NCBI GenBank assembly: GCA_017427715.1
Contig: JAFRSF010000005.1
Span: 1-39,193, forward strand
DNA: 39,193 nt
Reading direction: 5' to 3'
Source of the DNA: Alphaproteobacteria bacterium
GTDB lineage: Bacteria; Pseudomonadota; Alphaproteobacteria; Rs-D84
Shown here piece by piece: positions 18,007 to 22,472 of this stretch. The notes beneath the pieces were generated by a model. It was not told where the DNA came from, did no database searches, and saw only the letters and a program-made list of their open reading frames with translations. Every line of letters starts with the position of its first letter. Positions within the stretch are counted from its first letter, which is position 1. The position numbers and the translations under genes are program-made.

Positions 18007-18738
18007 TTATTCTGATTTTTTATTTTCGTTTTTTTCGTGATGCGTTTGAATTGCGTTTGCCACAGATTCTATTTGTAACAACTGATTTTCCAACGCAGCA
18101 CGTTCAGATGATTTATATCCTGTTTCTTCTGTAGATTTATTAGCAGCATTTTTGGCATTATTTTTCACCACGGGGTTTATCAGATTATTATAGATTTTTT
18201 TGGCTTCTGTTGCATCAGTCATGTCGCGTTGCAACAATTTATTATTACCAAAGAAAAACCATTCATCTAATTTAACAGCAGTTAATTGCATAACAGGACG
18301 GGTACGCGCATCAGCAACCCAATGTGGCAACACATGTGTATCTGAATAATACCACAATGCCCCCCAATACACAAACCCCATAACAACGACACTGCGAATT
18401 ATACCGAATATAATACCCAATGTTCTGTCAGTCACAGATAAAACACTGCCCTGCACTTTTTCACGTAATTTTTGATTGATAAAACCAACAATTACCAAAA
18501 TGACAAAAAATACAATAAAATAAGATGCAACCAATGTTCCAACCGTTGAACCAGATAAATCAAACCAATTCTGTAATAATTTATCCAAATATGGTGATAC
18601 AAAACGCGCCGTTATTGCAGCCGCAATCCAAGACATTGTGGCAATAGTTTCATAAATACCACCACGAATAGTTGCCCAGATTGTTGAAACAATCACAACC
18701 AGAACATAAACATAATCCATTATCGTTAAATCAAACAT
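18007..18738 (-). CDS. cvpA: CvpA family inner-membrane protein
   Basis: CvpA proteins are four-helix inner-membrane proteins first tied to colicin V production and now to envelope stress tolerance. The N-terminal half shows the family pattern MDYVYVLVVIVSTIWATIRGGIYETIATMSWI, then VSPYLDKLL, VGTLVASYFIVFFVILVIVGFI and DRTLGIIFGIIRSVVVMGFVY, the last holding the conserved DR..G..FG..RG-like loop. The C-terminal 90 residues are a charged cytoplasmic or periplasmic extension. Its ATG comes immediately after the stop of a frame that extends the upstream thioredoxin-like gene, which argues for coupled translation. Confidence 0.92.
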   Translation of the reverse strand: MFDLTIMDYVYVLVVIVSTIWATIRGGIYETIATMSWIAAAITARFVSPYLDKLLQNWFDLSGSTVGTLVASYFIVFFVILVIVGFINQKLREKVQGSVLSVTDRTLGIIFGIIRSVVVMGFVYWGALWYYSDTHVLPHWVADARTRPVMQLTAVKLDEWFFFGNNKLLQRDMTDATEAKKIYNNLINPVVKNNAKNAANKSTEETGYKSSERAALENQLLQIESVANAIQTHHEKNENKKSE

Positions 18739-18857
18739 TTATTGTGCCTGCTTTTTCTTTTTGAATATCACCACAAATACCCCCGCCAATAACACGAACA
18801 AAAGCCCAAATAATAATATGTTTGTCGTGTCAGTGGCGTGTTTATTTATTTTTTTTT
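18739..18857 (-). other. Frameshifted membrane-anchor tail of the thioredoxin-like gene
   Basis: The upstream gene ends GKKK-stop on a run of nine A (18857-18849). Reading one base back from the run opens a frame of 36 residues: a short polar linker (INKHATDTTN), a 19-residue hydrophobic helix (ILLFGLLFVLLAGVFVVIF) and a basic KKKK stop-transfer. It has no start codon of its own, and its TAA abuts the cvpA ATG. The in-frame heptamer A AAA AAA is a known slippery type. This is best explained as a tail added by -1 ribosomal or transcriptional slippage, or as a sequencing or real one-base deletion that broke a longer gene. The fused product would have 189 residues. Confidence 0.65.
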
Positions 18858-19307
18858 ACCTTCTTGAAAAACAATAGACGTTTTTCTTGATGCATGCGCT
18901 TTGACGAAAGCATCTTTGTCAGAAGCCATTTTTTCTTGGTTTGATTTAGCAGATTGTTTTTGCGTATCGGTCAAATCAATTTCAATTGCATCACGCAAGT
19001 CCTTTTGCATAAAATCTGCATAGCCCTGGAAACATTTTTCACCGACCACAATCACTGGTACACCGCCACTTTTGTATCCACATTTTTGAATGGTATCAAC
19101 AAACTCTTGCCGATTATCTGCGACAGTAACATTGATTTCTGTGACTTTCAGACCATCATATTCATATATCAAAGTATTTTCAATAAATTCACGAGCATGA
19201 TGACAATGTGGACACGTTGGCGAATGAAAGATTTTTATATCCGCTGCATTAGCAGTTGCCATAACAACACATCCACAAATTACAGATGCAGTTTTTAATA
19301 ATTTCAT
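18846..19307 (-). CDS. Exported thioredoxin/glutaredoxin-like protein
   Basis: A signal peptide ends in ATANA (residue 21) and is followed at once by a thioredoxin fold: first strand IKIFHSP, the redox motif C32-P33-H34-C35, and the cis-proline in GGVPVIVVGE (P84) followed by a further cysteine (C92). CPHC is the DsbA-type active site, but the fold is glutaredoxin-sized (about 80 residues), with a charged helical tail to 153. It should act on disulfides or thiols in the periplasm. As written, the protein ends GKKK; a frameshift would add a membrane anchor. An AAAGGAGAA ribosome site precedes the ATG, and cvpA is downstream in the same operon. The many secreted Cys-rich proteins here are plausible clients. 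Confidence 0.9.
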   Translation of the reverse strand: MKLLKTASVICGCVVMATANAADIKIFHSPTCPHCHHAREFIENTLIYEYDGLKVTEINVTVADNRQEFVDTIQKCGYKSGGVPVIVVGEKCFQGYADFMQKDLRDAIEIDLTDTQKQSAKSNQEKMASDKDAFVKAHASRKTSIVFQEGKKK

Positions 19308-20584: not shown

Positions 20585-20719
20585 ACATTGTATATAGCAA
20601 AAAAAACAAAAGGATTAGTCATGAAATTATTGACACGCAAATATAAATACGCGACCAAGTATGCAACCAATTTATTATTGGGTGTGTTATGTGCATATTC
20701 TGTTTGTGCATGTGATAAT
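20557..20719 (+). repeat. Left arm of an inverted duplication (promoter and first 33 codons)
   Basis: This stretch matches 22310-22472 on the opposite strand with only scattered differences. It covers promoter, leader, ribosome site, signal peptide and lipobox of the two lipoprotein genes. Confidence 0.85.
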
Positions 20720-21505
20720 GTCAAACAAATTACACCAAATGATACACAACCCGATAATGAACGTCCTGATAATGGTCAATACGAACCCAATCCCACCGAC
20801 ACAGATCAGGACAAACAAAATAATCAAGAACATCAGGGAACCCCAGATAATCAATGGGAACAACCAGATGAAAATCACAACGAAAACCCCGATAACCAGT
20901 GGGAACAACCGGATGAAAATCATAACGAAAACCCGGATAACCAATGGGAACAGCCGGACCAAGACCACAACGAAAACCCGGATAACCAATGGGAACAGCC
21001 AGACCAAGACCACAACGAAAACCCGAATGACCAAGACAATCAATGGGAACAGCCAGATGAAAATCATCAAGAAACCCCAGATGAACAGAATAATGAGGGT
21101 AAATGTGATCCAGGTTACGTTTGGAGTGATTTTGATGTACAACCTGTACTGTCTGAGTATGGTTTTGTTGACAAACAGTGTGTAGCATGTAATTCTATAC
21201 CAGATTTGGCTCAGGCCCTTGAAAATGGAAACCGCTATTGTCCAGGAGGTGATGATTTGAAAGGTAAAAGAGTTTTTTGGGAACAAATATCAAAATGTCC
21301 ACAATACACTTACGTAAATGCCGATTATTCCGATTGTGTATGTACATATGGTGTCCCACCACCAGGGAAAACTTGTGCTGATCTTGTCAACGGAACAAAA
21401 AAACCGTTGATAATTAGCCCAAAGGTTAATGTTATATCAAATCACAGAAATGTGAACAGACCAATGTTGATGCGTACAAAAATCCGTAAAGCAAAAATAA
21501 GATAG
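20621..21505 (+). CDS. Repeat-containing probable lipoprotein A
   Basis: I start at the ATG at 20621 (294 residues), preceded by AAAGGATTAG. The N-terminus is basic then hydrophobic and ends VCAC, a plausible lipobox with Cys31 as the lipidated residue, so Lgt may process it. After an Asn/Asp/Pro-rich spacer come five tandem units of 15 residues, each built on DNQWEQPD (residues 76-153), and then a C-terminal domain with about ten cysteines (CDPGYVW, CVAC, YCPGG, CPQYTYVN, CVCTYG) and a basic tail. A surface-exposed stalk carrying a small disulfide-rich head fits this layout. A paralog (lipoprotein B) lies opposite and convergent. Function is unknown. Confidence 0.85.
   Translation: MKLLTRKYKYATKYATNLLLGVLCAYSVCACDNVKQITPNDTQPDNERPDNGQYEPNPTDTDQDKQNNQEHQGTPDNQWEQPDENHNENPDNQWEQPDENHNENPDNQWEQPDQDHNENPDNQWEQPDQDHNENPNDQDNQWEQPDENHQETPDEQNNEGKCDPGYVWSDFDVQPVLSEYGFVDKQCVACNSIPDLAQALENGNRYCPGGDDLKGKRVFWEQISKCPQYTYVNADYSDCVCTYGVPPPGKTCADLVNGTKKPLIISPKVNVISNHRNVNRPMLMRTKIRKAKIR
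20846..21079 (+). repeat. Five 45-base tandem repeats in lipoprotein A
   Basis: Units start at 20846, 20891, 20936, 20981 and 21035. The fourth has three extra codons (NDQ). Each encodes DNQWEQPD followed by ENHNENP or QDHNENP variants. Confidence 0.9.
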
Positions 21506-21586: not shown

Positions 21587-22408
21587 TTATCTTGTTTTAT
21601 GACCACGTATTTTTGTCTTTAACAGATTCTGGCGATTTACTTTTCTGTGGTCCCGTATGATATTGATTTTTGGGCTAATTATCAACGGTTTTTTTGTTCC
21701 GTTGACAAGATCAGCACAAGTTTTCCCTGGTGGTGGGACACCATATGTACAATCACAACCAGACAAATCGCTATTTACATATGTATAGTCCGGACATTTT
21801 TCTACTTGACGTTGAATTGATTTATGTTTCAAATCAGATATATATCCGCCTGGACAGTAGTAATTAGTGTCATACATATACTTGATTGCCCAATTCACTG
21901 AGATGCATGGCGCACATTGATTATTATAATCTTTTCCGTCATTGATACCATACTCAATGCTTGTACTCAACCACGGATCTATATTATAATCAACCCACAC
22001 ATAACCAGGATCACATTTACCCTCATCATTCTGTTCATCTGGTTTTTCCTGATGATTTTCATCCGGTTGTTCCCACTGGTTATCTTGATCATTTGGAGTT
22101 TCATTATGGTCTTGGTCCGGCTGTTCCCATTGGTTATCTGGGTTTTCATTGTGGTTTTCGTCCGGTTGTTCCCATTGATTATCTGGGGTTCCCTGATGTT
22201 CTTGATTATCTTGTTTGTCCTGATCTGTGTCTGTGGGATTGGGTTCGTATTGACTGCTGTCAGGACGTTCATTATCGGGTTGTCTACCGTTCGGATTGAT
22301 TCTTTGTATATTATCGCATGCACAAACAGAATATGCACATAACACACCCAATAACAAATTGGTTGCGTACTTGGTCGCGTATTTATATTTGCGTGTCAAT
22401 AATTTCAT
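21587..22408 (-). CDS. Repeat-containing probable lipoprotein B
   Basis: The paralog of lipoprotein A in mirror orientation (273 residues, start at 22408 with AAAGGATTAG). The first 33 residues are identical to A and include the same VCAC lipobox. Only three repeat units are present (residues 76-123) against five in A, exactly two 15-residue units fewer. The C-terminal domain has diverged between conserved cysteines (WLSTSIEYGINDGKDYNNQC against VLSEYGFVDKQC), whereas CTYGVPPPGKTCADLVNG and the following segment are the same. So ends are conserved and the middle is variable, as expected for an adhesin-like or antigenically varied surface protein; that role is inference. Confidence 0.85.
   Translation of the reverse strand: MKLLTRKYKYATKYATNLLLGVLCAYSVCACDNIQRINPNGRQPDNERPDSSQYEPNPTDTDQDKQDNQEHQGTPDNQWEQPDENHNENPDNQWEQPDQDHNETPNDQDNQWEQPDENHQEKPDEQNDEGKCDPGYVWVDYNIDPWLSTSIEYGINDGKDYNNQCAPCISVNWAIKYMYDTNYYCPGGYISDLKHKSIQRQVEKCPDYTYVNSDLSGCDCTYGVPPPGKTCADLVNGTKKPLIISPKINIIRDHRKVNRQNLLKTKIRGHKTR
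22040..22183 (-). repeat. Three tandem repeats in lipoprotein B
   Basis: Units read on the minus strand begin at 22183, 22138 (18 codons, with the same NDQ insert as the fourth unit of A) and 22084. The matching insert shows that the arrays share one origin and differ by loss or gain of two internal units. Confidence 0.9.
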
Positions 22409-22472
22409 GACTAATCCTTTTGTTTTTTTTGCTATATACAATGTACTGTAATCAATTTTGTGTATATTGCAA
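22310..22472 (-). repeat. Right arm of the inverted duplication
   Basis: Near-identical reverse complement of 20557-20719. It includes the promoter TTGCAA (22472-22467), 16 bases, TACAGT (22450-22445). Confidence 0.85.

Follow-up and report, generated by a model that had tools for sequence, protein, structure and literature searches.

Only a few tested genes in bacteria are known to use programmed transcriptional slippage. In the dnaX gene of Thermus thermophilus (tau/gamma), a run of nine adenines (A9) lies within a single open reading frame, mRNAs of variable A length are made, stop codons follow shortly behind the run in both other frames, and long and short products result (PMC1088944, PMC5009743). 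The tssM1 gene of Citrobacter rodentium undergoes transcriptional frameshifting at an A11 run ahead of a stop codon, where slippage restores a C-terminal part of the protein; Western blotting, a reporter and mass spectrometry all revealed the two length variants of this envelope protein (PMC4256274). Homopolymer slippage also gives rise to extended or truncated products from Shigella mxiE, spa13, spa33 and mxiA (PMC5009743), and IS elements use transcriptional slippage as well (PMC5009743, PMC1088944). Finally, in the reduced genomes of Buchnera and Blochmannia, polymerase slippage partly corrects out-of-frame genes at poly-A (PMC5009743).

A glutaredoxin-like gene of Ca. Enterousia, a genus with reduced genomes in the order Rs-D84 (PMC12306168), carries a junction that resembles these systems in part. 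Based on comparative sequence analysis, we propose, with a probability of about three in four (0.74), that this single gene gives both a soluble and a membrane-anchored glutaredoxin through RNA-polymerase slippage at a conserved run of A, and that either form can be the one templated in the DNA. Unlike dnaX, which encodes a cytoplasmic polymerase subunit, templates the long form and loses a C-terminal domain by slippage with no membrane anchor, the glutaredoxin-like gene templates a form that varies between species. Compared with tssM1, a prematurely interrupted gene whose run lies 28 nt before the stop, the glutaredoxin junction is conserved family-wide, has its stop immediately behind the run, and offers a single anchor helix as the alternative part. 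The Shigella examples are type III secretion genes that encode unrelated proteins and have no anchor switch. In Buchnera and Blochmannia damaged genes are rescued in genomes rich in long A runs, whereas Enterousia keeps one run, otherwise avoids A9 in coding sequence (CDS), and places a stop right behind it. The class of mechanism is already known; what appear to be new are this use of it, in which slippage would decide whether a redox protein carries a membrane anchor, and its evolutionary pattern, in which the junction is conserved throughout a family and the slippage site is kept while the templated frame varies. Our literature search returned no slippage case involving a glutaredoxin, Rs-D84 or soluble and anchored forms, a weak negative in that subscription papers lay mostly outside the search.

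The window analyzed here is a stretch of 39,193 nt from a genome of 1.01 Mb. Its glutaredoxin-like gene occupies positions 18846..19307 of the minus strand, as do all features of the junction, and its templated form is an exported protein of 153 aa ending in GKKK-stop. A probable Sec signal peptide (MKLLKTASVICGCVVMATANA, 19245..19307) was judged by inspection, its basic, hydrophobic and AxA pattern being kept in relatives, and a CPHC redox active site (19203..19214) is invariant in the alignments. The first-pass annotation had described a periplasmic thioredoxin-like protein; an exported redox protein it is, but the Glutaredoxin profile fits better than thioredoxin (PF00462; in a Pfam profile search it scores 28.9 bits, above the curated cut-off of 22.9). 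The predicted fold (pLDDT 86) is a glutaredoxin with a helical C-terminal extension, and the best solved-structure matches are glutaredoxins (top PDB 3ic4, E=3.4e-5). The protein thus shares with the PF00462 family its domain, CPHC/CxxC site and predicted fold, and differs in being exported, in the helical C-terminal extension and in an optional membrane anchor.

At the 3′ end the minus strand reads GGT AAA AAA AAA TAA, in which the A9 run (18849..18857) is followed at offset 0 by the TAA that closes the templated frame (18846..18848) and at offset +4 by a second TAA in the third frame (18842..18844), so that both non-tail frames are closed at once. The frame one base back (ATA AAT AAA CAC ... 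AAA AAG AAA AAG CAG GCA CAA TAA) is stop-free from 18849 until its own TAA at 18739 and encodes an out-of-frame tail of 36 residues plus stop (18739..18849), INKHATDTTN-ILLFGLLFVLLAGVFVVIF-KKKKQAQ. This tail consists of a linker, a 19-residue hydrophobic helix (ILLFGLLFVLLAGVFVVIF, 18763..18819) and KKKK; the helix is called transmembrane from hydropathy, with a Kyte-Doolittle 17-residue maximum of 3.15. The tail TAA stands directly before the ATG, at 18738, of cvpA (Colicin V production protein family, 18007..18738; PF02674, E=1.5e-22), which is the conserved downstream neighbor in nearly all relatives. Re-reading the sequence reproduced exactly the features first recorded here, the GKKK-stop on nine A, the 36-residue frame one base back and the stop abutting cvpA. 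Two other identities for the tail were rejected: it is not a separate small membrane gene, having no in-frame start before the helix and being fused in homologs, and it is not a CTERM-type sorting signal, as three anchored relatives gave no match to any NCBIfam CTERM model. Elsewhere in the window, positions 1-12 at the contig start are an A12 run, a homopolymer at which the assembly may have broken. Two similar lipoprotein-like genes at 20588-21505 (+) and 21587-22441 (-) form a convergent, inverted pair with a shared N-terminus and repeats of the DNQWEQPDENHNENP type.

The gene was found in 57 of 58 other sampled genomes of the genus. Together, the sampled genomes and a second public-genome set gave 105 non-redundant loci of these gut Alphaproteobacteria, all from metagenome-assembled genomes (MAGs) and related to one another, such that counts over them are phylogenetically non-independent. 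As the first-pass annotation had suggested looking for, the tail is present in frame in homologs: it is found in 104 of the 105 loci and is fused in frame in 84, while in 11 it stands in the frame relation of the window (m1) and in nine in the third frame (p1). The 20 out-of-frame loci take in the window and two sister species. One locus (L059, G014) is the sole genus member found without tail or run, and its C-terminus is a low-complexity extension of the PAEKPVEKPAES type. Background rates were taken from 343 kb of control CDS in sampled stretches of the genus, two of the 20 control stretches (L078, L080) being masked as N.

The length of the run is held within narrow limits. Before the tail it is A9 in 51 loci, A10 in 40, A12 in one, A7 in one and A5 or shorter in 11; runs of A6, A8 or A11 do not occur among the 105 loci. 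Thus 92 of 105 reach the length at which homopolymers become slippage-prone (9 A or more in most bacteria), and selection against slippage usually becomes visible at A/T runs of nine (PMC1088944). The control CDS hold 162 A7 and 28 A8 runs and, apart from the glutaredoxin-like gene, no A9 or longer run inside a credible gene; an A16 in the control set sits in a doubtful ORF at a terminator. The window's genome has some 30 tracts of A9 or more, of which the few that touch ORFs sit at ORF starts or outside, and none except that in the glutaredoxin-like gene falls in a gene body away from the start. The choice of residues does not account for the run, since the motif [EQ]KK[NSTIRK] is coded as A9-A10 in 53 of 53 cases in the linker versus 0 of 10 elsewhere (matched control). 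A synonymous-codon model gives each fused locus a mean probability of 0.38 of a run of at least nine given those residues; the product over the 73 fused loci, about 1e-35, is overstated because the loci are related. The recurrence of run and tail over the genus is far more than chance would give. Judging by run lengths and codon choice, the A-run at this junction is under selection. Such a device is not essential, because 11 loci have an in-frame tail without a run and one has no tail. A single locus (L006, G046) has an out-of-frame tail with only A7 (GAA AAA AAG ATT AAA TGA); it may have lost slippage recently or may slip at a shorter site.

The stop behind the run is as regular as the run itself. 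In 83 of the 92 loci with A9 or more, a stop in a non-tail frame begins 0-1 nt behind the run. The corresponding figure is 10.7% after A6-A8 in ordinary CDS, and the encoded residues, given the codon use of the genus, would lead one to expect 27%. The probability becomes absurdly small if every locus is counted as independent; reducing the data to only 22 independent lineages (20 of 22 assumed) still leaves a probability of about 4e-10. Members of the window's clade usually close both non-tail frames together, in a TAANTRA arrangement with offsets 0 and 4 that the window shares with many of its clade relatives; in Thermus dnaX both non-coding frames are likewise stopped close behind the run (PMC5009743). 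As far as these comparisons of sequence can tell, the position of the stop is under selection.

We hypothesize that RNA polymerase slips on the A9 run, so that some mRNA gains an extra A or undergoes another length change, and that each mRNA variant would then be translated normally. Unslipped mRNA of the window would yield the soluble periplasmic glutaredoxin with its GKKK end, and mRNA with one A more (or two fewer) the same protein with a C-terminal inner-membrane anchor, its periplasmic domain outside and KKKK in the cytoplasm according to the positive-inside rule. Most relatives would do the reverse, templating the anchored form and reaching an immediate stop, and with it the soluble form, upon gain of one A; because most relatives template the anchored form, the window is the reversed configuration. 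Selection would hold the run at 9-10 and the stops just behind it, so that both forms are made whichever is templated.

The direction of the shift bears on which machine slips. Among the 73 fused loci, one additional A leads to a stop no more than 8 nt further on in 67 and no more than 1 nt further on in 52, compared with 18 and 13 for the loss of one A, a contrast partly confounded with phylogeny in that the immediate stops after loss of one A fall mostly in the window's clade. One additional A gives the anchored form in all 11 m1 loci; in the p1 loci with A10 (n=8), the anchored form needs the loss of one A or the gain of two. Single-base insertions prevail when RNA polymerase transcribes A/T homopolymers (PMC5574713). 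From these stop and anchor counts, most loci fit a single-base insertion, and fit a −1 shift by the ribosome just as well. In programmed −1 ribosomal frameshifting, the ribosome would slip back on the lysine codons of A_AAA_AAA into the tail (window) or onto the stop (fused relatives); this reaches the same frame as one added A and so fits 67 of 73 fused and 11 of 11 m1 loci. The heptamer occurs in most loci with the direction that such a shift would need, and ribosomes are known to slide on poly-A lysine stretches (PMC4363877). Several observations nevertheless make a ribosomal shift an unlikely reading, if the best placed of the alternatives. First, the eight p1 loci, whose tails are under selection, require the opposite direction. 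Second, Shine-Dalgarno-like sequences upstream of the run are at background (6 of 92 versus 7.3%), and downstream folding is near random, with no enrichment of a stem-loop stimulator. Third, a ribosomal site requires 6-7 A, which is below the sharp limit of nine. Finally, A8 is absent from this junction, though it is commoner than A9 elsewhere in CDS. RNA polymerase is preferred over the ribosome because both directions are used, the threshold lies at nine, and neither Shine-Dalgarno-like nor stem-loop stimulators accompany the site. The original suggestion of slippage at A AAA AAA thus appears sound as to the run, with the polymerase a better fit than the ribosomal machinery.

To follow the templated form across the genus, a tree of the glutaredoxin core and CvpA was built from 104 rows; it is a quick tree in which many branches are weak. 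On it A9 and A10 interchange at least 21 times, losses or gains of the run number at least six, and the frame state changes at least nine times, so that the templated form, soluble or anchored, has switched at least that often. In one locus (L058, G013) an apparent indel lies upstream of the run and not in it, leaving the tail out of frame and the run still A9, as if frame changes were tolerated when the run can correct them. Species that lack the run still have an in-frame anchor; of the two forms, the anchored one thus seems to be the one that is retained.

The same switching would be expected of phase variation at the DNA level, in which the tract changes between A9 and A10 at replication and different cells make different forms. 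The numerous changes on the tree agree with this, and poly-A/T tracts can phase-vary (PMC3711429), yet near-identical genomes from different MAGs show one state (L033, L133 and L150 are all A9 and out of frame), whole species clades have one state in common, and none of the distinct close pairs, only about ten in number, differs in run length. Nor is there the spread to A8 and A11 of a freely mutating tract, and in most fused loci a clean stop lies only in the direction of one added A. We regard phase variation as improbable, and more so than a ribosomal shift.

The out-of-frame tails themselves evolve as protein. Synonymous and nonsynonymous divergence in the tail are 0.30/0.02 for L033/L142, 0.37/0.08 for L033/L130, 0.55/0.10 for L130/L142, 0.48/0.05 for L011/L018 and 0.52/0.14 for L096/L107. 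In the window's clade the values are 0.81/0.31 for L002/L116 and 0.83/0.40 and 0.66/0.28 for the other pairs, the two sister species of the window being divergent (tail pN 0.28-0.40). The synonymous excess shrinks or reverses in most other-frame readings of the tails. Out-of-frame tails are, on this evidence of codon substitution, under purifying selection at the protein level. Since the tail frame evolves as protein across the clades that share the out-of-frame state, a dead remnant is very unlikely, and a pseudogene tail was ruled out on this ground. The window (L002) groups with L116 and L119 in a single clade (SH-aLRT 99), every member of which has A9 and an out-of-frame tail. Homopolymers are prone to error and mutation, and run-less species do make one form only, but a simple frameshift mutation, pseudogene or assembly error that leaves one product, either the soluble form (as in the window) or the anchored one, can be set aside as most improbable given an out-of-frame junction common to independent assemblies and sister species, tails that are open, hydrophobic and under purifying selection, and 92 loci that retain A9-A12 despite its avoidance elsewhere. 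The one-base error or deletion that the first-pass annotation had offered as the trivial alternative consequently fails as a general explanation: the same A9 junction, out of frame, recurs in sister species and in MAGs assembled independently. Its principal idea, that slippage lets one gene encode both a soluble and an anchored product, is by contrast favored by the fusion of the tail in relatives, the shared out-of-frame state and the selection on the tail. From these patterns we infer that the RNA polymerase is what slips, that both proteins are made, and that they work at separate sites, the soluble form in the periplasm and the anchored form at the membrane.

The design is not confined to the genus. 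Elsewhere in the family, three loci from other genera (L219, L225 and L241) are arranged likewise (A9 or A10, with one added A leading to AAC TAG or AAA TGA), and four others carry the anchor but no run. G068 (L207/L214), which belongs to a different family of the order, has an A10 through which its glutaredoxin continues in frame into a multi-helix domain; the NPC and CS-GLP motifs of this domain suggest a resemblance to CcdA/DsbD. Its relative G063 (L204/L216) also has A10, with TAG just behind it in the template frame, and the multi-helix domain intact in the frame reached by one added A, stop-free over some 260 residues. G060 encodes a glutaredoxin/multi-helix fusion without a run, the multi-helix part of which has no Pfam match. 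The A10 of G063 and G068 probably marks another slippage junction of this type, which suggests that slippage joining a glutaredoxin to a membrane partner is either ancestral or was invented twice. Glutaredoxin homologs in families f2, f4 and f5 of the order lack the slippage run and tail. An A8 in G062 was rejected as a slippage site; it lies within the glutaredoxin domain, and the membrane ORF looks like an overlapping gene in its own right.

The window's genome encodes a DsbA-like protein and has no Pfam match to DsbB, DsbD or VKOR. It is plausible, as speculation, that having two forms lets the protein serve free substrates as well as membrane partners.

These observations describe a junction of about 15 bases kept over roughly a hundred species, with a measurable outcome, the location of a redox protein. 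They also supply sequence criteria for such sites (a run confined to 9-10, a stop 0-1 nt behind it, and a tail selected in the other frame) and some 100 natural variants, losses included, as a series for testing slippage, its direction and run length. Gene callers will mark such genes as truncated in about one-fifth of species. For the family as a whole, we lean toward a selected RNA-polymerase slippage switch that would set the ratio of free to membrane-held redox protein, with the site conserved and the templated frame not.
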